Source: Bacillota bacterium (GTDB lineage: Bacteria; Bacillota; Negativicutes; Sporomusales; Sporomusaceae). Taken from it: DNA of 64,000 nucleotides. Positions 37,249 to 64,000 of the stretch are shown piece after piece. Position 1 is the first letter of the stretch. The number at the start of each line of letters is the position of its first letter. A program made the position numbers and the translations under genes. The notes beneath the pieces are model-generated. The model ran no database searches and was not told the origin of the DNA. It saw only the letters and a program-made list of their open reading frames with translations. The stretch is taken from NCBI GenBank assembly GCA_017889705.1, contig JAGGAB010000003.1, positions 62,001-126,000 of the forward strand. Reading direction: 5' to 3'.

Positions 37249-38745
37249 CTAGAGCAAACATTTTTTCAGTATCTTACCTGATGCGTTGCGCGGCAGCACC
37301 GAAGCAAATTCAACAACCTTTGGCATCTTGTAGCGTGCCAATTTACCTTCACAGAAAGCTTTAATACCCGCAATGTTAATTTGCTGTTTGGGATCTTTTA
37401 AAACAATAACCGCTTTTATGACTTCCCCCCATTTCTCATCAGATACGCCAACTACGGCAGCTTCTTTTATGTTGGGATGTCGGTATAGAACTTGTTCAAC
37501 TTCAACTGGGTAAACATTCTCTCCGCCGGTGATAATGACATCTTTTTTCCTGCCTGCAACATATAGATAGCCTTCAGCATCTTTCCACAGGCAGTCTCCG
37601 GTAGAAAACCATCCTTTTTGCATAACTGCCTGGGTTTCCTGCGGCTTTTCCCAATATCCTTGCATAAGGTTTGGCGCCCGCACCAATAACTCCCCTATTT
37701 CTTCACTCAAGGCATCCTGGCCGTATTCATTTACAATCCGTATATCAACATAAAAAGCAGGTTTACCGACAGAGCCACTTTTGCGGTCAGCATCCTGGAT
37801 ATTTAAAATAGCAACAGGTGCCACCTCAGATAAACCAAACGCCTGGATTAACGCAACTCCTTTTTGCCGGAGTAATTTAATCACTGTTGTAGGACATGGA
37901 GCCGCTGCCGAGATACTAATGCGCAATGACCGCAATGTATATTTAGCAAAATCAGGAACCTGAGTAACAGCAAGCCACATAGCCGGCACCATAAACATAC
38001 AGGTTATTTTTTCCCGCTCGATAGTTTGCAGTACCTGAACCGGATCGAACTTATTGGCAATAATTACTGTACCGCCTTTATACAATAACGTTAATGTCAA
38101 TATGGTCATTGCCCCGCTATGAAACATCGGTGCGACTGTAAAGGTAGTATCTGTATCCACAATGGGCTGCGCAATTAAAATCTGAACAATATTCCAGAAG
38201 GTATTTGCATGCGTAAGCATTGCCCCCTTGGGGCATCCGGTAGTTCCCGAAGTATACATGATCATCTGTACTTCGTCCCCGTCTACATCACTTGTCGGCT
38301 CAGAGTCACCGTGCTTTGCCAAAAAATCCTCATAAGCAAATGCCTCCGCTAATTCATCGCCAACACTAAGGCTATGTTTTATGGCAGCTCGTTTACAGAC
38401 TTCAGCCGCCAACAATGCATACTCTTGGTGATAAATAAATACGGACGCACCAGAATCCTTCAGAATATATTCAACTTCCTCAACACTCAAACGAAAATTA
38501 ACGGGAACAAATATAGCGCCGATTTTGGCACAAGCAAACATTACTTCCAAAATTTCCGTGCCATTTGTTAAGAATACCGCTACCCGAGTTCCCTTTTGAA
38601 CGCCAAGCTGCATTAACCCATTTGCCAGACGGTTGATGCGGCTGTTTAGCTGGCTGTAAGTAAGCTCACGGTCTTTGCAGATCAAAGCAGTTTTACTGCC
38701 GCTCAATTGAGATCTCTTGATCACCCACTGTCCGATTCCCCTCAC
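37249..38745 (-). CDS. Acyl-CoA synthetase (AMP-forming)
   Basis: MYTSGTTGCPKGAMLTH; GWFSTGDCLWKDAEGYLYVAGRKKDVIITGGENVYP; proposed GTG start at 38745. Confidence 0.92.
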   Translation of the reverse strand: MRGIGQWVIKRSQLSGSKTALICKDRELTYSQLNSRINRLANGLMQLGVQKGTRVAVFLTNGTEILEVMFACAKIGAIFVPVNFRLSVEEVEYILKDSGASVFIYHQEYALLAAEVCKRAAIKHSLSVGDELAEAFAYEDFLAKHGDSEPTSDVDGDEVQMIMYTSGTTGCPKGAMLTHANTFWNIVQILIAQPIVDTDTTFTVAPMFHSGAMTILTLTLLYKGGTVIIANKFDPVQVLQTIEREKITCMFMVPAMWLAVTQVPDFAKYTLRSLRISISAAAPCPTTVIKLLRQKGVALIQAFGLSEVAPVAILNIQDADRKSGSVGKPAFYVDIRIVNEYGQDALSEEIGELLVRAPNLMQGYWEKPQETQAVMQKGWFSTGDCLWKDAEGYLYVAGRKKDVIITGGENVYPVEVEQVLYRHPNIKEAAVVGVSDEKWGEVIKAVIVLKDPKQQINIAGIKAFCEGKLARYKMPKVVEFASVLPRNASGKILKKCLL

Positions 38746-38833
38746 GCATATCCACTCTTCTCTCGCTTCATAAAGATAAATATTATGCAATAGCCCTCTG
38801 TTGGTTTTACCGCGCCTTTCCTGCCGGATACTT

Positions 38834-39124
38834 TCATCCGTAGCGAAAGGTAACACCCATCGTACCGCGCGGATAAGCCCATTTGCTTATACCCTTGGTT
38901 TTGCAGACAATCCGGCAGGTGCCGCATTCCAGGCAGCCGGCATAATCAAAATTGACTTCGCCATCCTTTAAGGTGTATAGCACTGCCGGACATACAACCA
39001 GACAGGGCTTTTCCTTACAGTTGGCGCAGATCGCCTTATCAAGAACAATATGCGGTTCTTCTTCATCAACAGCGAATTTGTTTAACCCTAAAAGTTCGTC
39101 CGGCGAAAGTTTTTTTACCGTCAT
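38834..39124 (-). CDS. fixX: Ferredoxin-like protein, FixX family
   Basis: CANCKEKPCLVVCPAVLYTLKDGEVNFDYAGCLECGTCRIVC. Confidence 0.92.
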   Translation of the reverse strand: MTVKKLSPDELLGLNKFAVDEEEPHIVLDKAICANCKEKPCLVVCPAVLYTLKDGEVNFDYAGCLECGTCRIVCKTKGISKWAYPRGTMGVTFRYG

Positions 39125-40404
39125 ACCGCTTTAAACCCCCTCCAACCATCGGCAAGCAGTTGCCCGAAGGTAACATGTTTTTTCAATACCTTTAACATGG
39201 CCTTATCCATGCGTTCAGGCAGTTTGCCATCAACTGCAAACAACACTTTCATCATTTCATTGGCCATTTTGGGATATACAGTTACCATCCGCCGGTTGCT
39301 CATGAGTTCGTGGAAATTAGCGTACAGCTTCATGGTTGGTGTCAAATCAAGGTCTTCTAACTCTTTTACATATGCCGGGCCTACATTACTGACATTTTCA
39401 TTCTTCAATATGGCCTGCGCGGCAGCAACGCCGCTGACAATGGCAAGATCAATTCCGCGAATAATCGTGCCTGTATTAACTACCATACCGGCCGCATCTC
39501 CCACCATAATCAGCCCGTCCCGGTATAGGTCCTTGGGCATGGCATGATAACCGGTTTCCGGCACAAGATGAGCGCCGTATTCCACCGTTGTCCCATCCTT
39601 GATTAACGGATAAATGGCCGGGTGCATTTTTAGTTCCTGCATAATTTCATGAATGGATTTACCCTGGTCAGCCAGGTCTTCTGGATTCAAGACTACCCCC
39701 AAGGAAATGCTGCTCTTGTTGGTGTACAAAAAGCCGCCGCCAAGCACCCCGCCACTACAACCAACAAGTACTCGCGCCGCCCCTTCGCCGCCATTAAGGT
39801 TAAAGCGGTCTTCAATAACTTGTTCCGGCAATTCGATAATTTCTTTAGCCCCTACGCCGACACTATGGGCATCAATATCTTTCCGCAAACCAGCCTTCTG
39901 GGCGATAAAGGAGTTTACACCGTCAGCAGCTATAACAACTGTTGCATAAATTTCATCATCACCGGCCTTAATGCCGACAATTTTTCCATCAGCCTCCAAA
40001 AGTTCGTCGACAAGTATGCCGGGTGCCAGCATAGCACCCTGAGCTTCGGCCTGAGCGGCAAACCACTCATCAAAAGGCGCACGCAGTACGGAGTAGGACT
40101 GGGGAACTTCTTTCCCGAAATCGTAATCCACATAGTCCATAGTCATGGCGCTGCTATTTCCGAGCATCATAATCTGCTCTCTGACCACTTTTCGCTCCAG
40201 CGGTGCTTCCTGATACAGACCGGGTTCCACCAATTCCAGCGCATAGGTATAAAGCCGGCCACCAGTAACGTTTTTGCTGCCAGCGCTTGTACCCCGTTCT
40301 ACCAGCAGAACACTTTTGCCATTCTTGGCCAGTACATAGGCGCAGGCGGCGCCGGCCGGGCCGGCACCAATAATTATGGCATCAAATTTTTCTTCATCTG
40401 ACAT
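39121..40404 (-). CDS. fixC: ETF-quinone oxidoreductase-like flavoprotein, FixC family
   Basis: FDAIIIGAGPAGAACAYVLAKNGKSVLLVERG; GDAAGMVVNTGTIIRGIDLA. Confidence 0.93.
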   Translation of the reverse strand: MSDEEKFDAIIIGAGPAGAACAYVLAKNGKSVLLVERGTSAGSKNVTGGRLYTYALELVEPGLYQEAPLERKVVREQIMMLGNSSAMTMDYVDYDFGKEVPQSYSVLRAPFDEWFAAQAEAQGAMLAPGILVDELLEADGKIVGIKAGDDEIYATVVIAADGVNSFIAQKAGLRKDIDAHSVGVGAKEIIELPEQVIEDRFNLNGGEGAARVLVGCSGGVLGGGFLYTNKSSISLGVVLNPEDLADQGKSIHEIMQELKMHPAIYPLIKDGTTVEYGAHLVPETGYHAMPKDLYRDGLIMVGDAAGMVVNTGTIIRGIDLAIVSGVAAAQAILKNENVSNVGPAYVKELEDLDLTPTMKLYANFHELMSNRRMVTVYPKMANEMMKVLFAVDGKLPERMDKAMLKVLKKHVTFGQLLADGWRGFKAV

Positions 40405-40439
40405 AATAACTCCCCCATTTTACAACAACGCTTGACGCC

Positions 40440-41372
40440 TTATTTCTTCTGCAAAGCAGCCGTTAGTAACGGCACCACTTCATATAAATCGCCGACAATC
40501 CCGTAATCGGCCGCTTCAAATATTGGGGCTTTTTCATTGGTGTCAATGGCAACAATGATTTTGGCATCCCTGATACCGACAACATGCTGTACCTGACCGG
40601 AAATACCCATGCCAATATAGAGTTCTGGTTTTACTTTCTGGCCGGAAATGCCGATATAACGGTCATTAGGCAGCCAGTGATAATCTTCGGAAATGCCGCG
40701 TGTGCAAGCGATTTCTGCACCGCAAGCAGCTGCGAGTTCTTCCACAAGCTTCATGTCTTCCTGTTTGGAGAGGCCACGGCCAACACAGACAATGCGGTTG
40801 GCTGTCGCAATATCGGCACCTTCACGCACAATCGGGCATACATTACTAATCACAACCCGCGAATCTTCATTGGTCACTTCTACAGTAATAATTTCGCCCT
40901 GTCCGGCTGTCTCAGACGCTTCGGCAAAAGTCCGGGGCGGAATAGTTACCAGCGCCGGCAGTGACACCACTTCCGTGCATATAGCTAAGCCGCCATACAT
41001 TAATCTGGTGGTTTCAATGGCATCATTAACGAACTGAACTGTTAACGCATCGGTAACAAGGCCGGCTTGCAGCTTTGCCGCCACTTTGGCTGCAACATCT
41101 TTGCCGCGCAGGGTAGCGCCGATTAGCACAACACTTGCCTGTTCTTTTTTTAAAAGCTCGTCTATAACACCGGCATAGCTTTCCGGCCAAGCACTAATTC
41201 CTTTTAGCAAATATACTTTATCGGCACCGGCACCAGCTAAGCTTTGCGCCGCTTCGTCAGTAATGGCAATAACATTGACAGACTGATCGGTGGTTTTCTT
41301 AAGTTCCTGACCTGCCGTCAGCAGTTGTCTGGCAACAGTACTGTCTTCTGAATAAATCCAAATTCCTGGCAT
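40440..41372 (-). CDS. etfA: Electron transfer flavoprotein alpha subunit
   Basis: VCVGRGLSKQEDMKLVEELAAACGAEIACTR; GISGQVQHVVGIRDAKIIVAIDTNEKAPIF. Confidence 0.95.
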   Translation of the reverse strand: MPGIWIYSEDSTVARQLLTAGQELKKTTDQSVNVIAITDEAAQSLAGAGADKVYLLKGISAWPESYAGVIDELLKKEQASVVLIGATLRGKDVAAKVAAKLQAGLVTDALTVQFVNDAIETTRLMYGGLAICTEVVSLPALVTIPPRTFAEASETAGQGEIITVEVTNEDSRVVISNVCPIVREGADIATANRIVCVGRGLSKQEDMKLVEELAAACGAEIACTRGISEDYHWLPNDRYIGISGQKVKPELYIGMGISGQVQHVVGIRDAKIIVAIDTNEKAPIFEAADYGIVGDLYEVVPLLTAALQKK

Positions 41373-41375
41373 GTT

Positions 41376-42164
41376 TTAACTACCCCTTTCCTCTAGCACA
41401 TGTTGGGCAAGGCTGGCAACCAGCTTAGCGACATTATCAGCCTGAGCGGCTTCTTTGAAGACAACCTTTTTCCGGTCCATAACATACCCTTTGCGTGAGA
41501 CAGCGCGCACTTTGGCGGTGAGCGCTTCTGCCGCAATGCCAAGTTCGCTTACTTTTACTTCCTCTGATGGTTTCTTGGCAGCAGCCATAACCTGCTTTAA
41601 ACCCGGTATGCGCGGTTTGTTGATCTCCGGCAGAACACTGATAACGACAGGTCCAGTTACAGTTACCTCTTCAATGCAGTCACCCAGCTTACGGGTAGCA
41701 ATTACCTTACCATCAGCCACTGTAATCTTTTGTACAAAGGTAACTGCCGGAATGTCCAGCAGGGCTGCCAACCGTGGGGCGGTTTGCTGGCTGTAAGTGT
41801 CAGCACTGCCTTCACCGCACAAAATCAAGTCATATTGTCCGAGTTTTTTGATTGCGGCAGCCAGCACATTGGCAGTCACAAAAGCATCAGCCTGTTCACT
41901 TGCTGCATCGCCTATCCAGTATACTTTGTCCAGGCCTCGGGAGAGAGCGTCTTTTAAAGATTGCTTGACCGCATCAGTCCCAAAGGTAAGCGCCTCCACA
42001 CTGATGCCATGAAGCTCCGCTAAAAGCGCACCTTCTTCGATTGCATTTTTGTCATAATCACTGATTTTATATTTAGCCCGGCCAGTATCGAGAGACAAAT
42101 CTCCCGCTATTTTAATGTCTTGTTCGTCCAATACCCACTTGTAACAGACAAGAAGCTTTTGCAT
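41376..42164 (-). CDS. etfB: Electron transfer flavoprotein beta subunit
   Basis: KISDYDKNAIEEGALL; DLILCGEGSADTYSQQTAPRLAALLDIP. Confidence 0.95.
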   Translation of the reverse strand: MQKLLVCYKWVLDEQDIKIAGDLSLDTGRAKYKISDYDKNAIEEGALLAELHGISVEALTFGTDAVKQSLKDALSRGLDKVYWIGDAASEQADAFVTANVLAAAIKKLGQYDLILCGEGSADTYSQQTAPRLAALLDIPAVTFVQKITVADGKVIATRKLGDCIEEVTVTGPVVISVLPEINKPRIPGLKQVMAAAKKPSEEVKVSELGIAAEALTAKVRAVSRKGYVMDRKKVVFKEAAQADNVAKLVASLAQHVLEERGS

Positions 42165-42231
42165 GGTTTACCCCTTTCTTCTTTTGGGAGAGGAAAATGT
42201 TCCTCTCCCTGTTCAGTTCTTAATAATTTCT

Positions 42232-43371
42232 TTAAGCCAACAGATTTCCGGCAATAATTTTCTCAGGGAAATCAAGAGAGCTGTTTTTAATTACGGCCCC
42301 TTTGACGTCACGATAAAGACGGGAAGCCACCATTTCCTGGCTGTAACCATAACCGCCCTCAATCTGGATAACGTCAATTAATGCGCTTTGGCCAATGCGG
42401 GCAGCAAACAGCTTAATCATGGCCGCCTCAGCAACAAATGCCTGGCCATTTTCCAAGAGACTGGCGGCATCATACACCGCTAAGCGCAGCATGTGGATAT
42501 TTGCGGCCATCTCAGCCAGCATGGACTGAATGGCGGGGAATGTGGCAATCGGACGACGAAATTGGATTCTCTGCTTACCATATTTCACGGCATCCTCCAT
42601 GGCAGCCTGAGCAATCCCCACTACCATAGCACCTTCGGCAATACTAGCGGCAGCCAGCGCTTCAGCGGCAATAGCCAGGCCTGCGCCTTCGGCACCTAAT
42701 AGGTTTGCTGCCGGCACTTTCACCTGATCAAATACCAATTCGGCTGACTGGCAGCCGCGAAGCCCCATTTTGTCAATAAGCCTTGCAACCGACAAGCCAT
42801 CTGTCTTCGCGTCCACAAGGAAGGCGCTAATTCCTTTGGCACCGGCCTCCGGATCGGTCTGAGCAAATACGATGTACAGGCCGGCTGCGCCGCCATTGGC
42901 AACATAGCATTTTCGGCCGCTTAGCACATAAGAATCGCCGTCTTTGACTGCAGTTACCCTGTGCTCACCTGCACCTAAAGCTGCGCCAGGTTCATTTAGG
43001 GCAAAAGCTCCCAATTTTTCACCCTGGCATAAGCTTGGCAAATAGGCTTGTTTTTGTTCTGCTGAACCCCAGCGATTAATGCTATAGGCTGCCAGTGAAG
43101 CATGATTCAGAAGTACTGCGGCCACTGCGCCACTTGCTCTTGATAATTCCTCAATAATTAAGGTGTAACTTAGATAGCCGGCTTCCGCGCCGCCAAACTC
43201 GCCTGGCAGAAAAATCCCCAGGAAATCCTGTTCAATCATTTTTTTAACAATATCTGCCGGGTGCGCTGCGGTATGGTCAATTTCAGCGGCAGCCGGTTCA
43301 ACATATTCTGTGGCAAATTCTCTGGCATTCTGCTGAATAAGTTGTTGTTCCTCTGTTAATGCATAACTCAT
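42232..43371 (-). CDS. Acyl-CoA dehydrogenase
   Basis: YALTEEQQLIQQNAREFATEYV; GAFALNEPGAALGAGEH; IQIEGGYGYSQE. Confidence 0.94.
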   Translation of the reverse strand: MSYALTEEQQLIQQNAREFATEYVEPAAAEIDHTAAHPADIVKKMIEQDFLGIFLPGEFGGAEAGYLSYTLIIEELSRASGAVAAVLLNHASLAAYSINRWGSAEQKQAYLPSLCQGEKLGAFALNEPGAALGAGEHRVTAVKDGDSYVLSGRKCYVANGGAAGLYIVFAQTDPEAGAKGISAFLVDAKTDGLSVARLIDKMGLRGCQSAELVFDQVKVPAANLLGAEGAGLAIAAEALAAASIAEGAMVVGIAQAAMEDAVKYGKQRIQFRRPIATFPAIQSMLAEMAANIHMLRLAVYDAASLLENGQAFVAEAAMIKLFAARIGQSALIDVIQIEGGYGYSQEMVASRLYRDVKGAVIKNSSLDFPEKIIAGNLLA

Positions 43372-43402
43372 GCGTTACCCTCCTCTTCTTTAGCTGCTCA
43401 AC

Positions 43403-44545
43403 TTATGAGTTAAGCAATATTCCGGATATAACAATTCGTTGAACCTGATTGGTGCCTTCATATATCTGGGTAACCTTGGCATCACGCATAAGCTTTTCCA
43501 CAATGCTATCCTTTGAATAACCGTATTGTCCCATGATTTCCACAGCATCTGCCGTCACCCGCATGGCCGCATCTGTGGCAAAGGTTTTGGCCATAGCCGC
43601 TTCTTTGGTATAGGGAACTCCGGCATCTTTCAGCCTGAGAGCATTTCGTACCAACTGTCTGGCAGCCTCCACCTGGGTAGCCATATCAGCAAGTTTAAAG
43701 GCAATTGCCTGATGGCTGCCAAGGGGTTTGCCATTAACATCCAGATATTCTTTAGCAAACTTCACAGCCTCATCCAGCGCCCGCTGTCCAACACCAACCG
43801 CGATTGAGGCTACAATCGGCCGTGCCATATCGAGCGTCTTCATGGCCAGCTTCATGCCTTCGCCTTCTTTGCCCAGCAGGTGGGCTCTGGGAACTCTCAC
43901 ATTTTTCAAGATAAGCTCTACGGTGTTGGAACTGCGAATGCCCATTTTATGCTCAACAGCCCCGACAATAAGTCCCTCCCGTTCTTTCTCGACAATAAAC
44001 GCACTTAAGCCTTTCACGCCTTTGCTGGGATCAGTCGAGGCAAACACCACCATGATATCGGCATAGCCACAAGTGGTGGCAAAGCATTTGGTACCGTTAA
44101 TCACCCATTCTTCACCGTCAAGCTTAGCGATTGTCGAGCAGGCACCGGCGTCAGAACCGGCCCCCGGTTCAGTAAGGGCAAAACCGCCCATACCGCCGTT
44201 TACCAGGCGTCCATAATACATTTTTTTTTGTTCATCCGTACCGGCAATTGCCAATGGATAAGAACTGAGGCCATTACCGCCCAGCGTTGTGGCAAAAGCG
44301 GCGCAGCCATAACCCCATTCTTCCGCAACCAGCGACTGCGTAACAGACGGATAGCCGGGACCACCGTATTCCTCAGGAACTGCCATGCAGTTAAGACCGG
44401 CCTTTTTTACTTCTTCCAGGATAAATTCATGGAATTCCCCTTTTTCGTCCCATTCGCGATCTACAGGAATGATATATTTCGCTGTAAACTCCCGGGCTAT
44501 CTGTTGCACTTTCTGCTGTTCAGGGGTAAGCGACATATCAACCAT
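43403..44545 (-). CDS. Acyl-CoA dehydrogenase
   Basis: GGFALTEPGAGSDAGACSTIAKLDG; EIMGQYGYSKDSIVEKLMRDAKVTQIYEGTNQVQRIVI. Confidence 0.96.
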   Translation of the reverse strand: MVDMSLTPEQQKVQQIAREFTAKYIIPVDREWDEKGEFHEFILEEVKKAGLNCMAVPEEYGGPGYPSVTQSLVAEEWGYGCAAFATTLGGNGLSSYPLAIAGTDEQKKMYYGRLVNGGMGGFALTEPGAGSDAGACSTIAKLDGEEWVINGTKCFATTCGYADIMVVFASTDPSKGVKGLSAFIVEKEREGLIVGAVEHKMGIRSSNTVELILKNVRVPRAHLLGKEGEGMKLAMKTLDMARPIVASIAVGVGQRALDEAVKFAKEYLDVNGKPLGSHQAIAFKLADMATQVEAARQLVRNALRLKDAGVPYTKEAAMAKTFATDAAMRVTADAVEIMGQYGYSKDSIVEKLMRDAKVTQIYEGTNQVQRIVISGILLNS

Positions 44546-44551
44546 TTTTCA

Positions 44552-46126
44552 TCAACCTTTCATTTTGGCTTCAATAATCTGTTTGAGTTGTCCCCATTTG
44601 TTCTGGAAAATTTCTACAGGCATGGTTTTCAAGTTTGGAGAAATTACGGGTTTGAATTCCATCATTGCCAGCACATCTTTTTCCAAGTCAATCCCTGGTG
44701 CAATTTCTGTCAGGGTTACTTGTCCATTTTCCAAAACAAATACGGCACGCTCAGTAACATATACTACTGCTTGATTTTTTTTCGCAGCAAACTCGCCGCT
44801 AAAGGTTACCTGCTCAACCTGATCAATAAATTTCTTGCCTTTCCCTTCCTGGACAATGACCAGCTTGCCGTCTTCAACGGCTACTTCAAGACCACCAGCG
44901 GTAAAGCTTCCGCAATAAACAACCTTTTTCGCACCTTGGCTGACATTAATAAAGCCGCCTGGTCCCATGGCCCGCCCTTTGAATTTGCTGACATTTACGT
45001 TACCTGCCTTGTCTGCCTGCGCCAGCCCCAAAAATGCCACATCAAGACCGCCGCCGTCATAAAAATCAAACTGATTGGCATGACCAATTACGGCTTCGCC
45101 ATTATAGGACTGACCGAAATGCGGCAGACTTGCCGGCACACCGCCGATACCGCCGGCTTCGGTGGTAAAGGTCATCATATCGGAAACTCTTTCCTCTGCC
45201 CCGACAGCAGCAACATCGCTGGGAATTCCCACGCCCAGATTTACAATAGCGTCAGGTACCAGTTCCATGGCTGCCCGGCGGGCAATAATTTTGCGTTCAG
45301 TCAGTGGCAGTTCCGGAATACTATCCATCGATACCTTAATATCACCGCAAAATACCGGGTTGAAATACAAGCCTTCAGTCTGCCAGCAGCATCTTTGGTC
45401 TGTGGCTACAACAACATGGTCAACCAAAATGCCCGGTACCTTAACATCGCGCGGATGCAGCGAACCGGCTTTGGCCAGGTATTCCACCTGGGCAATGACC
45501 AAACCGCCGTTATTTTTTACAGCCTGTGCCAATTCCAGCATTTCCAGCATAACCGACTCTTTTTCGGTGGTAAGATTGCCTTTTTCATCAGCGGTGGTTG
45601 CCCGGATGATGGCGACATCAATCGGGAATGTTTTGTAGTAAAGCCACTGCTCACCGTCAAATTCCACTAATTTAACAATATCTTCGGTGGTCTTGGCATT
45701 CATTTTGCCACCGTCCAAACGCGGATCAACAAAAGTTCCCATTCCTACTTTTGTCAGAACTCCCGGCCGTTTTGCCGCGATTTCACGATATAGTTGAACA
45801 ATAACCCCTTGCGGCAGGCAATAGCCTTCAATCTTACTTTCCGATACCAGCTTTGACATAGTTGCCGATGATCCGATATGAGCACCAATCCAACGCTTGA
45901 TTAACCCTTCATAGCCGATCCGGACTGTTCCCCGGTCCTTCCAGTCGCCTGTTGCCGAAGCATGTACCAATGTCAGGTTGCGCGGCTGCCCGGTTCCAGT
46001 AAATCTTTTTTCAAGCGCCTCGGCGATCTCTTCGGCCCAACCAGCAAGACCAAAACCAGTAGTTGCCACTGTCATGTTGTCTTTTAAGAGGGCTGCCGCC
46101 TGATCAGCGGTTATCAATTTTGACAT
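44552..46126 (-). CDS. Acyl-CoA:acetate/3-ketoacid CoA-transferase (YdiF-like)
   Basis: MSKLITADQAAALLKDNMTVATTGFGLAGWAEEIAEALEKRF; IVNLGVGIPSDVAAVGAEE; start trimmed to 46126. Confidence 0.93.
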   Translation of the reverse strand: MSKLITADQAAALLKDNMTVATTGFGLAGWAEEIAEALEKRFTGTGQPRNLTLVHASATGDWKDRGTVRIGYEGLIKRWIGAHIGSSATMSKLVSESKIEGYCLPQGVIVQLYREIAAKRPGVLTKVGMGTFVDPRLDGGKMNAKTTEDIVKLVEFDGEQWLYYKTFPIDVAIIRATTADEKGNLTTEKESVMLEMLELAQAVKNNGGLVIAQVEYLAKAGSLHPRDVKVPGILVDHVVVATDQRCCWQTEGLYFNPVFCGDIKVSMDSIPELPLTERKIIARRAAMELVPDAIVNLGVGIPSDVAAVGAEERVSDMMTFTTEAGGIGGVPASLPHFGQSYNGEAVIGHANQFDFYDGGGLDVAFLGLAQADKAGNVNVSKFKGRAMGPGGFINVSQGAKKVVYCGSFTAGGLEVAVEDGKLVIVQEGKGKKFIDQVEQVTFSGEFAAKKNQAVVYVTERAVFVLENGQVTLTEIAPGIDLEKDVLAMMEFKPVISPNLKTMPVEIFQNKWGQLKQIIEAKMKG

Positions 46127-46175: not shown

Positions 46176-46191
46176 AGCATGTTTTGTGCCA
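46176..46191 (-). promoter_or_regulatory. Sigma-54 (-24/-12) promoter upstream of the CoA-transferase operon
   Basis: minus strand TGGCACAAAACATGCT vs TGGCACN5TTGCW. Confidence 0.82.
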
Positions 46192-46266
46192 AAACCTTAT
46201 CCATTTATAAAATCCAGTAATTGCACGCCTTAGCAGCTTTTTTACATGCAGCCTCCCCATGTTGTA

Positions 46267-46326
46267 TGTACCTTTTTATTCAATCTTCAGTAAATTCAAA
46301 ACCGTCAGTATACCTTTTTAGGTACA
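46267..46326. promoter_or_regulatory. Paired candidate UAS for sigma-54 activator
   Basis: tgtacctttttattcaat at 46267 and tatacctttttaggtaca at 46309; starts 42 bp apart. Confidence 0.7.
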
Positions 46327-46370
46327 TTGACGGTTTGGTGAACTTATTTCAATAAAAAATGGATGTCTCA

Positions 46371-47816
46371 TTATGAGCATCCATTTTTAGACCTAGTATT
46401 TACAACATTCGGTTTTTGAAATTCTTTTAATTTCCGATAAAGAACAGTCCTGTAAATACCCAACTTTTGGGCAGTTTCTCCGATCTTTCCATCGTTTTCC
46501 TGCAATATATGGTTGATATATTTTTTTTCGACCGTTTTTAGTACATCCCGTAAAGTTCCGTTCAATCCCAGCAGTTTAAAAATATTGTACTGATAATCAT
46601 TCCCCTGGCCAATTGTATCAAAAGCCAAACTGTCGGTATGACTGTCCTGCAAACTGCTAATTACTTTTCGTTCGACAGCACTTTTTAACTCCCGTACATT
46701 TCCCGGCCATTTATAGCTTTGCAATTCTTCAAAAGTCTCAGAATCGAACTCAACTTCCAAACCATATTTTTTTTTAAAACTTTCCAGAAAGCGCAGCGCC
46801 AATACCACAATATCTTCCGGCCGTTCACGCAAAGGCGGTATCGAAAGCGGTATCACGTTGAGACGGTAATACAAATCACTCCGAAATGTCCCTTCCTCCA
46901 CCATCTTGTTTAAGTTTTTATTAGTTGCGGCAATTAGTCTAAAGTCCATTTTCCGGTCAATATTGCTCCCCAAGCGCCGGACTTCACAAGTTTCGAGCAC
47001 GCGCAAGAGTTTTGCCTGCAGCGCAAAGGGAAGTTCTGCAATTTCATCTAAGAATAGGGTTCCATTGTGGGCAGCTTCAAACAAGCCAACTTTTCCTTCG
47101 GTATTTGCTCCAGTAAAAGCGCCCTTTTCATAACCAAACAATTCTGATTCAACAAGATTCTCCGGTAAATTAGCGCAGTTTACTGCAATAAACGCCTCTT
47201 CCGACCTTTTGCTGTGCCTGTGTATATATTTAGCCAATATTTCTTTCCCAGTCCCCGATTCTCCAGTCAAAAGTACCGTACTGTCTACCTGCGCAACATT
47301 GTGCGCCCGCAATAATACTTGCTTCATATTCTTATTTTCAGCCACAATGGTTTCGGTATCCAGTACATAGCTTCTTAAATATTCCATTTCACGTTTACGC
47401 CGGCTGACTTGTTCTTTTTCCTCGCAGTTGACGTAGCTTTCCTGCGTGTTATGAGGCCTGCCGTAAGTTACAACTAAGATTACCTCACCATTATCATCTA
47501 GTATTGGCGTGCTACTTGAATACTGTATAAAATCCAGTTTGGTTTTTAATACTCCGCTTCTCACACACTTTTTTTCGGCTGCTTCTGCAGCAAAGGATTT
47601 ACTGTAAAAACCTTTTTTTACCAAATCTTTTATGTTCGATTTTAGCAATCGATCTAACGACATGTCCAACGTCAGCGCCGTCGTTGAGTTTGAAAGCAAT
47701 ACGTTACCATCTTTGTCAGTCACAAAAATTGCATGCGGCAGTTTATCAAATATTTGGCGCAAATTCTTCTGGGCCAGTTCATAGCTTCGTTCGACAGTTT
47801 TTGATTTACACTGCAT
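46371..47816 (-). CDS. PAS-AAA+ sigma-54-dependent transcriptional activator
   Basis: LLTGESGTGKEILAKYIH; ELFGYEKGAFTGANTEGKVG; C-terminal Fis-type HTH. Confidence 0.96.
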   Translation of the reverse strand: MQCKSKTVERSYELAQKNLRQIFDKLPHAIFVTDKDGNVLLSNSTTALTLDMSLDRLLKSNIKDLVKKGFYSKSFAAEAAEKKCVRSGVLKTKLDFIQYSSSTPILDDNGEVILVVTYGRPHNTQESYVNCEEKEQVSRRKREMEYLRSYVLDTETIVAENKNMKQVLLRAHNVAQVDSTVLLTGESGTGKEILAKYIHRHSKRSEEAFIAVNCANLPENLVESELFGYEKGAFTGANTEGKVGLFEAAHNGTLFLDEIAELPFALQAKLLRVLETCEVRRLGSNIDRKMDFRLIAATNKNLNKMVEEGTFRSDLYYRLNVIPLSIPPLRERPEDIVVLALRFLESFKKKYGLEVEFDSETFEELQSYKWPGNVRELKSAVERKVISSLQDSHTDSLAFDTIGQGNDYQYNIFKLLGLNGTLRDVLKTVEKKYINHILQENDGKIGETAQKLGIYRTVLYRKLKEFQKPNVVNTRSKNGCS

Positions 47817-47888
47817 TAAACAAGCACCTCCATTTTACACAACTTACAATTATTTCATTTCATAATTATAGTTCACTGTAAAATACAT

Positions 47889-47925
47889 TGCAAAAACAGT
47901 CCCACATTAATGTGAGACTGTTTTG
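47889..47925. terminator. Terminator hairpin
   Basis: aaaaacagtcccacattaatgtgagactgtttt. Confidence 0.7.
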
Positions 47926-48073
47926 CTGTGTTTAGCAATTAATTATAACGTCCGTATTTCTCTACTGCAGCAAAAATGCATCCACATCAAATGGATAATG
48001 ATAACTTTCTTTCAGAAGCACTTAAATGCAACCACTTATGTCAATACATCTATTTCTTACCTGCAAATTGAGG

Positions 48074-49180
48074 TTATTTACCGGAAGCGGCAGCAACCAT
48101 AGCCTTAACATTTTCAAATTTAGCATTTGGCGGTATAGTGCAACCGGAAGCAAGAATAAATCCTTTTCCCATATCCTTAATCAATTTGGTTGAATAGTTG
48201 TACACATCGTCAGGAGTGCCAAGCGCCAACATGGCAGCAGGAACATCTCCCTTAATACACATGTGATCGCCAAGAACCTCTCTTATCTTATAGATATTGG
48301 TAGCGCCATCGCACTCAAAAATGCATTTCTGCCTAGGTAAGGTTTTGAAAAATTCCAAATCGCGCTCCCAGTTACCGTCAATGTGCAGGTCTGCTATCGC
48401 ACCTTCTTCAATAATTGCCTCGGCAGCCGCCTTTAGATACTTCCAGACAAAACGCTGCCAGATCTTCGGAGAATAGAATTCACTAGCTCCCCGAGCTGGC
48501 GACATAAAGACAACCATAGGTTTAATGGCGCGTATTTGCTGACGTAATTCTGCTAGATTTTCCTCAAGAATGACATCTAAAACAGCCTCAACCTTGTCAG
48601 GCATTTTAAACATATCTCTCATGAATTTGGGAAATGACCGTCCTCCGCCCAAAAATTCATTTACGGTAGAAGATGCTTTGGGAGAATATACCACAATGCC
48701 GGCATCCTCAAAATCTTTGATGAATTGTGGGACCTCCTTCAATTGTTCACGGATCGCATCAAGATCAAAGCCAACTCGATTTTTTAAATAATCCTCACTA
48801 AAAGCTTTCCAGCCTTTATTCAGAATCGTATCATAATCTTCCACTGTCATCAGTTCCTGCTCATCAAGCTGCCACGGAGTATCATCAGGAAGCTCACGCC
48901 CAGGCAATTTAACTTTCGAATAAAAAATTAACGGAAAAATTGTGGCGGTTGCGTAAGTACTGCCTGTTCCATCAACATCGCCCAAATCTTTAAATGAAGA
49001 TAAAATTGCTTGATGGGAAGCTTTCATATTTGAAACAAATTCAGACAGCTTCATGCCTACATGTCTTGCAAAAACAGCATCTCCTGCGATTATAACAGGA
49101 GTACGGTCCGTTTCCTCAAAAGCAATGGTTTTTTTCAATCTTTCAGTACGTTCCTGAAGCAATTGTTGTGCTGTTTTCAT
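48074..49180 (-). CDS. Uroporphyrinogen decarboxylase family (UroD/MtaA/CmuA-like) methyltransferase
   Basis: LADLHIDGNWERDLEFFKTLPRQKCIFECDGATNIYKIREVLGDHMCIKGDVPAAML; GFILASGCTIPPNAKFENVKAMV. Confidence 0.88.
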   Translation of the reverse strand: MKTAQQLLQERTERLKKTIAFEETDRTPVIIAGDAVFARHVGMKLSEFVSNMKASHQAILSSFKDLGDVDGTGSTYATATIFPLIFYSKVKLPGRELPDDTPWQLDEQELMTVEDYDTILNKGWKAFSEDYLKNRVGFDLDAIREQLKEVPQFIKDFEDAGIVVYSPKASSTVNEFLGGGRSFPKFMRDMFKMPDKVEAVLDVILEENLAELRQQIRAIKPMVVFMSPARGASEFYSPKIWQRFVWKYLKAAAEAIIEEGAIADLHIDGNWERDLEFFKTLPRQKCIFECDGATNIYKIREVLGDHMCIKGDVPAAMLALGTPDDVYNYSTKLIKDMGKGFILASGCTIPPNAKFENVKAMVAAASGK

Positions 49181-49213
49181 TATAAATCCACTCCCTCAAA
49201 ATATTTAATTAAC

Positions 49214-50026
49214 TCATACAGAGTCTGCAACCTTCTGTATATCAGCCGCTGTTGCGGCTAGCTGCTGCATGGATGCCGAAATCTCACCTGTCGAAATAGC
49301 CTGAGTGCTACCAAGGTCTGCTGTTTTTACTAATACATCCACGACCTTTGATGTATCTTGCTGAATGGTTTTGAGAATGCTCTCAATATCTTTAACAGAG
49401 TTTCCACTGTTAACAGCCATTTTTCGAATTTCTTCTGCTACAACGGCAAATCCCCGTCCATGTTCACCAGCTCTAGCAGCTTCAATAGCGGCGTTAAGCC
49501 CTAGTAAATTGGAATTAGCCGCAATATCACTGACAAAGCGTAAAATATCAGTGGTTTTCTTAATATCGTTTAAAACTTTCTCGCCATCCTGGCGAACTTG
49601 TGCCAAATCATCAGAAAGTTTAGTGGCTGATACATTGAGCCCTTCAGCAGTTGCACTTAATTCCTGGGATGTTGCTGCTATAGTCTGGGCGGCATTTTGC
49701 AAAATTTCATGTGTTTGCATACTGACAGCCGCACCTACAATGCCGATAAATTGCTGATTTTCATCAAAAACAGGCCTAACAATGGCTTTGCAGGGAATAC
49801 CATATACCGATGTTGGTACTGTAGTTATTATTTTCTTTTTGGTTCTGATGCACTCTAACATGGCACCACCTTTGGCAATCTCGCCAATCTTTACATCAGC
49901 ATGAAATGTATCTGCCGGTGAATAATGAAGTATTCTTCCTTCTGGATCACATACCATTACTGAACAATCAAATGCATTCAACTCACGAAAAACATCAGCA
50001 CTATCAATAATCTCTTTTAAATTCAT
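49214..50026 (-). CDS. Soluble methyl-accepting chemotaxis-type protein
   Basis: [40 protein letters not shown]; no obvious TM segment. Confidence 0.9.
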
Positions 50027-50115
50027 GCTTGTCGCTCCTTATGTGTTGTATTACTATCATCATTAAATTGACGCAAGCATACATAACATTGTTGTTAAAC
50101 GTCCTTATAACGTAT

Positions 50116-50131
50116 CGCAATTTTTATGCCA
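50116..50131 (-). promoter_or_regulatory. Sigma-54 (-24/-12) promoter upstream of soluble MCP/UroD
   Basis: minus strand TGGCATAAAAATTGCG vs TGGCACN5TTGCW. Confidence 0.78.
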
Positions 50132-50194
50132 ATAATCTAAATTTACAGAAATTACAGCGCATACGTCTCTATCGGGTTTAATAATTCAGTTTTA

Positions 50195-50254
50195 TGTACC
50201 TAAACTGATACTTTTTTCAGTTACAGCACCACAGCATGTACCTTTTGAAGTACG
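50195..50254. promoter_or_regulatory. Paired candidate UAS for sigma-54 activator
   Basis: tgtacctaaactgatact at 50195 and tgtaccttttgaagtacg at 50237; starts 42 bp apart. Confidence 0.68.
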
Positions 50255-50262
50255 CAAATTTC

Positions 50263-50870
50263 CTAGTTAAATAAAATAAGGCCTACATACGAAACTGTAT
50301 TTTTTCCATTATAGTAGGGAATTCCGCAAGTTTTCTCCAGGTTTATTACATCAATACCAAAGGCTTCGACTGAGGGAAATGCTTCCTCTGGAAATCTGCA
50401 TGGTTCATTATCCAAAAAAGTGCAGCGGTTGCAAAATTCACAGGCTCCAGCATTTAACGCAAGTATCTCCTGCAGGTTATGTTTATTTTTAAGGTTGCTC
50501 AGCACTTCCCTAAACACTTTGTCATGGTCTTTCTTCGCCGACATCATTCCCTTCCAATCAAAGGAACTGGCTACTTGATGCACTGTCTGAAACAATAGTC
50601 CATACTGATATCGGCAAGCCTGCGTCTTGACCGCCTCAAACGAACCCACTCCAGGCGGACACATCCAGTTTGTAGCATACTTCCTACAGACATTTTGTTC
50701 ACAGGCTTTTCTAAAATCCTCAACAAATTTTATTTTCCCTACTTCAACAATTGCTGCATGGTTCGCTTTTGCAGTAATTGCTGCATTTACCAGTTCATTA
50801 AAACTATTCTCCAGCTCAGTTGCCCCCTTGAGCGCTTCTGCCGCAAAGATGTTAATAAGCAAACTTTTTG
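50263..50870 (-). CDS. DUF2284 putative metal-binding protein
   Basis: CRKYATNWMCPPGVGSFEAVKTQACRYQYGLLFQT; CEFCNRCTFLDNEPCRFPE; start approximate because the upstream ORF end covers an operator. Confidence 0.82.
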
Positions 50871-50882
50871 AGAACCGCCATT

Positions 50883-50910
50883 TGTATATACATCTATATA
50901 TAGAGTAGCC
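50883..50910. promoter_or_regulatory. Candidate operator copy 3
   Basis: tgtatatacatctatatatagagtagcc. Confidence 0.76.
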
Positions 50911-51023
50911 AAAATTGCCCAATTTGTCAATATTTTTTTATTTTTCTTTTAATTTAGTTTATTATTATAGCGCAAAACAACGTCCTGAAAGCTTTATCAG
51001 TATTCAGGACGTTATTGCCTTTA

Positions 51024-51749
51024 TTATTTTACTCTTTCTTCGCATAACTTCAGAGATGTATTCTGTCCAAGCTGAGTCTGATCAACCTCATTGCCACCAC
51101 AAATATCACTTATCGTAATAGCCTTTCCTGGTTCGAGTACCAAAAATTCATCATCCCATGCCCCTTTTAGCAGCTTATGAAATAAGCGCAGCGAACCTGG
51201 TGTAACAGCATGACACAGATTAAGCTTTTCCGCAACAGCCTGTGTTTTCACTAGCACGCTTTCTAACGCATAAGCGCCTGTATCTATCAGCATGAATCGT
51301 TTATAATGCCCTAACATAATCTTCATTATTTTTGAAGTTCTGGACTGTCCATAACGTTCAATGCAGCGTTCATATTCTTGAAGCAGGTTATTCTCGTAAT
51401 CTAACCAGCCTTTCGTCAGAAAATAAGTTCCCATCTCTTTTGATATATTTTTTCTGGCTTCACAAGAACCCAAAAGCAGCGGAATGCAGTCATCAACCTT
51501 GGGCAATACCAATGTTGCCTTATCTGATTTAACGCCAAGTAAACTATTCCCACAATATCCAAACAACAACAAGATTGTGTCAACATTATCTATCCGATTG
51601 ATTTCCTCCTGAATGCGTTTGTGTAATAGTTCAGGTGTGTTATGCAAACCGGATTCAATATATATAATGGGGAAATCCACCTTGGTTTCCTGTACTGCTA
51701 ATGTGAGTTCCGCCTGAAGTGTCTGACATGCAAGTATTGCAGTCCCCAT
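51024..51749 (-). CDS. DUF1638 family protein
   Basis: ILACQTLQAELTLAV; LLLFGYCGNSLLGVKSDKATLVLPKVDDCIPLLLGS; GHYKRFMLIDTGAY. Confidence 0.85.
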   Translation of the reverse strand: MGTAILACQTLQAELTLAVQETKVDFPIIYIESGLHNTPELLHKRIQEEINRIDNVDTILLLFGYCGNSLLGVKSDKATLVLPKVDDCIPLLLGSCEARKNISKEMGTYFLTKGWLDYENNLLQEYERCIERYGQSRTSKIMKIMLGHYKRFMLIDTGAYALESVLVKTQAVAEKLNLCHAVTPGSLRLFHKLLKGAWDDEFLVLEPGKAITISDICGGNEVDQTQLGQNTSLKLCEERVK

Positions 51750-51762
51750 CTGACCACTTCCT

Positions 51763-52428
51763 TTATGACGATTGAACTATTCGTCTATTGGACGCAAAAA
51801 TATCCCGGCACAATTCGATTACTCGGCCACAATCGGTAGCCCAATAATCTGCGCCAGTATATTTTCTTACACTTTCATTAACTAGACCTCCAATAATTAC
51901 CGTAGTCTCAGAACGAAGCCCGGCGTCGTCCAAGAGTGTAATCGTATTTTTCATAGAGTCAAACGCTTCCGTAATTAATCCGGTTAAACAAACAACCCGG
52001 CTATTATGCAATCCGACAGCTTCGATAAATTTCTCACCTGGAACGTTAACACCTAAATCGCAGATATCAAAGCCATTGTATCGCATAATACCTGTTGTTA
52101 TATTTTTGCCAATATCATGAATATCTTCTGCAACTGTGCCAAATACAACAGTAGGATAAGAAGCGATCGCGGTAACTACTCTGTCTTGATTTACTAAAGC
52201 CAGTACATCTTTAAAGATTTCAGACGCCATAATCAGGTCTGATAAAAAATATTCTCCTTTACTGTAAAGCTCACCTACCCGGTCGGTCCCTAACCGGATT
52301 TCCTCCAACAGAACATAGGGATTGATCCCCATCTCAAGACCTTGTTTAACGAGATTCATCACCGTAGCTTCATCCAGTCTAGCCATGGCACAGACTAACA
52401 TTTTCTGGATTTTTAGCATAAATCTCAC
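51763..52428 (-). CDS. Corrinoid (B12-binding) methyltransfer protein
   Basis: VVFGTVAEDIHDIGKNITTGIMRYNGFDICDLGVNVPGEKF. Confidence 0.94.
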   Translation of the reverse strand: MRFMLKIQKMLVCAMARLDEATVMNLVKQGLEMGINPYVLLEEIRLGTDRVGELYSKGEYFLSDLIMASEIFKDVLALVNQDRVVTAIASYPTVVFGTVAEDIHDIGKNITTGIMRYNGFDICDLGVNVPGEKFIEAVGLHNSRVVCLTGLITEAFDSMKNTITLLDDAGLRSETTVIIGGLVNESVRKYTGADYWATDCGRVIELCRDIFASNRRIVQSS

Positions 52429-63727: not shown

Positions 63728-63915
63728 ACACTAGCCTCCCTGTAAATACTTGCTACTGTATCTTCATTCGCTGTCGGTTTTTGTTTTCCTTCTTTATTAC
63801 TTTATTTAATTAAAATATACTTTAGAATTCCCGTTTATACCAGATAAATGCAACTAGTTTTTTGTTGACAGCTATCATAAGGCATGTTAATATAAAATTC
63901 ATAAAATTAATATAG

Positions 63916-64000
63916 TTCATCAAGAGCTGGTTGAGGGAATGGCCCAATGACACCGCGGCAACCATCGCATTTGCGAACGGTGCTAATTCCACAGGATTAA
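63916..64000 (+). promoter_or_regulatory. SAM-I (S-box) riboswitch at window edge
   Basis: ttcatcaagagctggttgagggaatggcccaatgacaccgcggcaacc...acggtgctaattccacagga matches the S-box core. Confidence 0.93.

Follow-up and report, generated by a model that had tools for sequence, protein, structure and literature searches.

The regulons of enhancer-binding proteins (EBPs) surveyed by Nie et al. (2019, PMC6615313) in the Clostridiales are among the closest described systems; in that account, upstream activating sequences (UAS) of the form TGT-N10..12-ACA are given for 15 of 39 EBP groups, including CrbR, the XcgR-type and YcbP, multiple UAS for 32 of the 39, and acyl-CoA/electron-transfer flavoprotein (Etf) genes among the targets, CrbR, XcgR and YctR being assigned to crt/bcd-etfAB operons and YcbP to phyL-uroD-eamA. 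The locus considered here lies in a 64,000-nucleotide stretch (the window) of contig JAGGAB010000003.1 of a Sporomusaceae bacterium (GCA_017889705.1), and comprises an EBP gene and two sigma-54 promoters, one before a CoA-transferase/acyl-CoA dehydrogenase/fixABCX operon and the other before the genes for a soluble chemoreceptor and a UroD-superfamily methyltransferase, each promoter being preceded by a pair of candidate UAS. Since TGT-N10..12-ACA UAS and acyl-CoA/Etf targets are known from the groups described in that source, the regulon is regarded as a new member of the paired-UAS kind; paired TGT-N12-ACA UAS being familiar, the novelty lies in the core of the distal UAS, which shares its dyad with an apparent intrinsic terminator. 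The best explanation of the data as a whole, to which a probability of roughly 0.8 is assigned, is a local sigma-54 regulon with paired operators in which the distal core doubles as a terminator stem.

Conservation of the paired sites

The first-pass annotation of this DNA had placed two sigma-54 promoters with identically spaced pairs of activator sites around the EBP gene; both -24/-12 elements and both pairs (46267/46309 and 50195/50237, each exactly 42 bp apart) are indeed present on the minus strand (Table 1), with distances to the -24 element of 75 and 63 bp, close to the values of about 76 and 64 bp given there. Scored as matches to TGTACC-N6-GGTACA out of 12, the site at 46309 is the best palindrome (11/12), as had been said; the description of the remaining sites as single half-sites applies to 46267 only (7/12), those at 50195 and 50237 reaching 10/12 each. 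The positions in that description were correct, and what it missed are the hairpin around the distal site and the replacement of the UroD gene.

Near almost every ortholog of the EBP the same arrangement is found, namely TGTACC-N6-GGTACA, a weaker partner 41–44 bp to the promoter-proximal side, typically TGTYGC-N6-GGTAC[AT], and then TGGCAY-N5-TTGC, which begins 69–97 bp from the start of the proximal site depending on the genome. Pairs at 40–44 bp before a -24/-12 element occur beside EBP orthologs at 20 promoters outside the window and in L080, L081 and L083, in 15 genomes; the 42-bp pairing reported for the window is thereby seen to recur, at 41–44 bp, in 15 other genomes. No such promoter passing the cut was found in locus L042, where the distal site is present, or in L048, and in the genome of the latter the CoA-transferase promoter (in L083) carries the pair. 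In the 14 ortholog-bearing genomes with any exact palindrome, 32 are found, versus 4 for the reversed pattern; in 44 other genomes there are about 7 of each. A strict search for GGTAC-N36..38-GGTAC-N40..70-P54 over 61 genomes returned only 6 matches; this pattern was too narrow, because the letters of the proximal site vary, and was therefore replaced by a sequence model of 64 positions, for which the window was left out of the training set and L033 (a 91% relative) was included. This model ranks the CoA-transferase pair first in the window's genome (E = 3.1e-6), and every match below E = 1e-4 falls in an ortholog-bearing genome; when L033 is also left out, both pairs stay among the top three of the window, at ranks one and three, with the first dyad read in reverse at rank two. 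The pair-to-promoter distances cluster at 69–70, 81–83 and 91–97 bp, and helical phasing was considered as an explanation; it is not pressed, since a period of 11–12 bp fits better than 10.5 bp.

The EBP gene product matches PF00158 (E = 4.5e-71) and the Fis-type helix-turn-helix (HTH) family PF02954 (E = 9e-10), with YEKGAFTGA in the translation, and RpoN is encoded in the same genome (PF04552, E = 2.7e-61). Among 60 related genomes, about 16 have orthologs, at 61–91% identity, and a gap separates these from paralogs at 50%; the recognition helix LG[IV]YRT[VI]LYRK (LGIYRTVLYRKLK in the window) is nearly constant among the orthologs, and the paralogs (48–50%) carry differing helices (LGIHRTLLYRK, LGICRTVLYRK). 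None of the named NCBIfam equivalogs reaches its cut-off with this protein, the best match being PrdR (NF041552; 382.9 bits against a cut-off of 795). A paralogous EBP (48%) at G000:C146:5223-6614 (L050, L129), in the window's own genome, adjoins another CoA-transferase (58%); a TGTACC pair was not found at that locus.

Operons probably under the control of the EBP

The earlier claim that the one EBP governs both operons divides into a firm and a less firm part: regulation of the CoA-transferase/fixABCX operon is well supported by the top-ranked pair at its promoter, and regulation of the chemoreceptor/UroD operon, the sites of which are degenerate here, is probable. In Sporomusa-like genomes and their relatives, the architecture stands both before the CoA-transferase/acyl-CoA dehydrogenase/fixABCX operon and before the chemoreceptor, with strong pairs at the orthologous chemoreceptor promoters of genomes G011, G006, G050 and G004. 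In G001, G008 and G014, and likewise in G038, it precedes an old-yellow-enzyme/enoate-reductase-like flavoprotein, in G012 and G013 transporters of the major facilitator superfamily (MFS), and, opposite a second EBP copy in G013 and G020, a set of corrinoid methyltransferase genes; the names of these targets are readings of their translations. Taken together, they suggest unsaturated-acid reduction and corrinoid demethylation as the common theme, and, on the grounds of enoyl-CoA/enoate reduction, corrinoid demethylation and MFS uptake among the targets, a methoxylated or unsaturated carboxylic acid may speculatively be proposed as the inducer. The nearest PDB relative of the window's UroD is CdmB of Acetobacterium; as the likeness spans the C-terminal half only, no substrate is claimed.

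Several observations weigh against dual control. The chemoreceptor pair is degenerate in the window's genome, scoring E = 0.36 genome-wide (0.005 within the window) with 10/12 matches at either site, G003 and G005 have no pair ahead of their syntenic chemoreceptor gene, and the UroD gene behind the chemoreceptor has been replaced. These points would fit an EBP that governs only the CoA-transferase operon here, the second pair being a decaying relic or read by another regulator, an alternative that is unlikely and still has to be taken seriously. Nevertheless, the chemoreceptor promoter retains the exact 42-bp spacing, an intact -24/-12 element and both GGTACA halves; its proximal site has a near-identical counterpart in L080 (AGTATCAAATTAGGTACA) and is nearly identical to that of G004; and the window's genome has no close second HTH by which the sites could be read, the next best being 48% identical to that of the EBP.

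The distal site within a terminator-like hairpin

The distal UAS of the CoA-transferase promoter is the centre of a longer inverted repeat, and the segment 46285–46350 containing it is predicted to fold at -26.6 kcal/mol (z -8.1); the folding z-scores obtained overall lie between -4 and -14. In the outer arms of the distal palindromes (7 positions per side, 22 promoters), 110 of 154 positions pair, compared with a mean of 54 and a maximum of 77 in 5000 shuffles, and the proximal sites have no extra arm pairing (39 versus 46 shuffled). An alignment of 20 distal dyads gives a covariation score of 0.466, against 0.155 ± 0.022 when shuffled and no more than 0.197 when the partners are slid, and 66 double-change cells against 25.5 shuffled, the core pairs being nearly invariant and the outer pairs changing on both sides. 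The rows of this alignment are related sequences, so that strict probabilities should not be read from the shuffle counts; the slid-partner controls address this kinship. T-runs follow many dyads, often just past the stop codon of the upstream gene, clearly in L035, L037, L043, L045 and L046, weakly in the window, and not at all in L044, L047 and L049. The simplest reading is that one dyad would serve as an operator in DNA and as an intrinsic terminator in RNA.

A number of features do not sit well with this reading: the T-run after the stem is short in the window (TTTTGAATTT), the terminator scan listed none of the window's hairpins, the distal chemoreceptor site of the window lacks a hairpin extension, and the distal dyads of the L039 chemoreceptor, L040, L047 and L049 are likewise unextended. 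The hairpin is accordingly not obligatory, since several distal dyads lack it; among those without extension are two divergent promoters (second copies in L047 and L049), where no upstream terminator is needed. No known RNA family in Rfam corresponds to the hairpin.

In several genomes the core is likewise contained in an earlier dyad, 10–30 nucleotides past the EBP stop codon, the arms of which are paired at 57 of 63 positions versus 34.5 shuffled; such core-bearing dyads, placed right behind the EBP stop and lacking their own sigma-54 promoter, lie at L037 10785, L039 10734, L042 10407, L044 10857 and L047 3207 (coordinates in EBP-forward orientation). One may wonder, tentatively and with the odds rather against it, whether the operator core has been selected in the terminators of the EBP gene and of the genes just upstream of its targets, at times in two successive terminators as at the five loci named, in such a way that the EBP, besides firing the sigma-54 promoter downstream, would by its occupancy also alter termination, its own included, either sealing or opening it.

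The extended arms, the T-runs and the location 10–30 nucleotides past stop codons could also be taken to mean that the distal palindromes are mere intrinsic terminators of the EBP gene and that the half-site 42 bp away is coincidental. A pure terminator stem, however, would drift in sequence, as the outer arms do, whereas the inner TGTACC/GGTACA is near-invariant; moreover, the same core recurs at 41–44 bp in unpaired proximal sites, in non-terminator contexts (the divergent L047b and L049b) and before several unrelated targets, which makes this explanation very improbable. The dyad may alternatively form a cruciform in DNA.

Background frequency of the motif

TGTACC-N6-GGTACA alone is not enriched in the 5.0 Mb genome, with 187 copies at up to 2 mismatches versus 217 for the reversed control, and the window has 25 copies at up to 3 mismatches where 16 are expected; given the lack of genome-wide enrichment over the control, the single-site motif is unusable on its own. 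The single motif is not rare, and the combination with a sigma-54 element is. The pattern GGTAC-N60..90-TGGCAYN5WTGC has 4 matches in the genome, 2 of which are the two window promoters. With a pair defined as 18 of 24 matches at 40–44 bp spacing, none was found at the 213 sigma-54-like sites of 30 shuffled windows, and in the real window pairs stand at 2 of 10 such sites, exactly the two reported. An origin by chance or base composition, for which the unremarkable frequency of the single motif might be adduced, is hardly credible in the face of the shuffled windows and the conservation in 15 genomes.

Genes of the locus and their history

The features of the locus are collected in Table 1. 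In the CoA-transferase promoter the -12 element is ATGC in the window and TTGC in L033; the open reading frame listed for the CoA-transferase begins at 46204, upstream of the sigma-54 promoter, and the gene probably starts at the ATG at 46126, just before which stands AAAGGAG. The sigma-70-like promoter before the EBP gene is among the best of the region, and because this promoter and a hairpin lie between the UroD and EBP genes, the EBP is probably expressed independently of the chemoreceptor operon.

Table 1. Features of the sigma-54 locus, in window coordinates (UAS scores are matches to TGTACC-N6-GGTACA)
Feature	Position	Strand	Details
Target operon	37249..46126	-	class I CoA-transferase, two acyl-CoA dehydrogenases, EtfB, EtfA, FixC, FixX (fixABCX), acyl-CoA ligase
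-24/-12 sigma-54 promoter, CoA-transferase operon	46177..46191	-	TGGCACAAAACATGC
Proximal UAS, CoA-transferase promoter	46267..46284	-	ATTGAA-TAAAAA-GGTACA, 7/12, one half-site; 42 bp from distal
Inverted repeat around distal UAS	46299..46337	-	AACCGTCA-A-TGTACC..GGTATA-C-TGACGGTT, then TTGAATTT; terminator-like hairpin
Distal UAS, CoA-transferase promoter	46309..46326	-	TGTACC-TAAAAA-GGTATA, 11/12
First hairpin, at EBP stop codon	46353..46389	-	AAAAATGGATG..CATCCATTTTTT; probable EBP terminator; no UAS core
EBP gene	46371..47816	-	481 aa; PAS 18-89; AAA+ sigma-54 interaction domain with GAFTGA 157-324; Fis-type HTH 426-466, LGIYRTVLYRKLK
Sigma-70-like promoter before EBP gene	47865..47894	-	TTTGCA-18-TATAAT (alternative TTGCAA-17)
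Terminator-like hairpin between UroD and EBP	47885..47920	-	CAGTCTCACATTAATGTGGGACTGTTTTTGC; read from sequence, not listed by terminator scan
Scar of relatives' UroD	47939..47977	-	last 12 codons (IFAAVEKYGRYN) plus stop
UroD-superfamily methyltransferase	48074..49180	-
Soluble methyl-accepting chemotaxis protein	49214..50026	-	270 aa
-24/-12 sigma-54 promoter, chemoreceptor/UroD operon	50117..50131	-	TGGCATAAAAATTGC
Proximal UAS, chemoreceptor promoter	50195..50212	-	AGTATC-AGTTTA-GGTACA, 10/12; 42 bp from distal
Distal UAS, chemoreceptor promoter	50237..50254	-	CGTACT-TCAAAA-GGTACA, 10/12

The UroD of the window shares about 30% identity with the UroD at the same place in relatives and 94% with one from G007 (L128 5160-6269), whose gene lies beside an MFS and a porin gene. 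The methyltransferase gene is a local replacement of a different UroD, of which the 12-codon scar is left. The UroD type of the relatives is itself present elsewhere in the window's genome, in L127 (G000 contig C60, 699-3197; 86% to L037), where it follows an OFA-type MFS transporter on a contig of 3.8 kb. In the EBP tree, the window's protein groups with those EBPs of G001, G008 and G014 that are linked to the flavoenzyme and not with the CoA-transferase-linked ones, in disagreement with ACAD1 and FixC, which group with Sporomusa-like loci; an exchange may also have affected the EBP together with its neighbouring UAS.

Directly upstream of the chemoreceptor promoter, genes for a corrinoid protein, DUF1638 and DUF2284 stand behind a GntR regulator (51024-52428, 50263-50922), the DUF2284 gene being missing from the corresponding place in G003 and G005. 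At 63914-64000 on the plus strand, the Rfam scan finds its only match, an S-adenosylmethionine riboswitch that is cut by the end of the window.

Proposed mechanism and significance

From the sites, their spacing and conservation, the covariation and the presence of RpoN, all directly observed, we infer binding of the EBP, activation, termination and a ligand, in the following manner. The EBP would be made from its own sigma-70 promoter. Ahead of each -24/-12 element its dimers would occupy two operators separated by about four helical turns, the distal one a strong TGTACC-N6-GGTACA palindrome and the one nearer the promoter a weak site in which chiefly the GGTAC half is preserved. On sensing of a metabolite by the PAS domain, the bound dimers would assemble the AAA+ ring, the DNA would loop over 69–97 bp, and GAFTGA would remodel the sigma-54 holoenzyme. 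Transcription of the CoA-transferase/acyl-CoA dehydrogenase/fixABCX operon would follow and, with less certainty for this genome, that of the chemoreceptor/methyltransferase operon. At promoters that closely follow the end of a gene running in the same direction, the core of the distal operator would form the inner stem of an intrinsic terminator, the sequence of this core being kept for the protein, and the outer arms would be kept only in their complementarity for the RNA hairpin.

Such a system would add a sigma-54 regulon with a clear operator to the Sporomusa-like anaerobes, and would tie enoyl-CoA/FixABCX electron transfer, corrinoid methyl transfer and chemotaxis to one sensor. It would also place two codes in one dyad, the core letters being read by a protein and the outer arms mattering only as base pairs in RNA; because of this split, the operator and terminator functions should be separable by mutation. 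A warning follows for motif searches that discard terminators, by which operators of this kind would be missed.

Comparison with known systems

The candidate regulon resembles those described in PMC6615313 in its local Fis-HTH EBP, its inverted-repeat UAS, several of which stand before a -24/-12 element, and its acyl-CoA/Etf or UroD targets adjoining the EBP gene; it differs from the Clostridiales groups as described there in that one EBP would span both kinds of target, and no named NCBIfam equivalog matches this EBP at cut-off. An overlap of UAS and terminator, as proposed here, is not mentioned in the account of those groups drawn on, and a limited search of the open-licence literature turned up no prior report in which the core of a UAS lay within a terminator. 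The half-site letters TGT/ACA and the tandem sites upstream are shared with UAS of the NifA/FhlA type (TGT-N10-ACA, paired, looping to a sigma-54 promoter), from which the present sites are distinguished by the form TGTACC-N6-GGTACA, with N12 between TGT and ACA, by the strong-distal/weak-proximal order and by the location of the distal site in a hairpin. PrdR has the same domain order over residues 11-466 (383 bits); the score is nevertheless far below the cut-off for NF041552, and proline reductase genes are not among the targets here.

DNA uptake sequences are sequence-specific DNA signals that occur in inverted pairs within terminator stems. Their use as terminators has been reported (PMC1852404), and they are comparable to the distal UAS in that a sequence-specific signal lies inside a terminator stem, with the difference that the signal here would be an activator operator limited to one regulon. 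As to the target operon, its genes for CoA activation, acyl-CoA dehydrogenase and Etf/FixABCX recall the caffeyl-CoA reductase-Etf (CarCDE) and the Cai/FixABCX systems of enoyl-CoA reduction; CarC (6fah) is among the PDB relatives of the first dehydrogenase, the best scores of which are to other short-chain acyl-CoA dehydrogenases, and, unlike both of these systems, the operon here includes a class I CoA-transferase.

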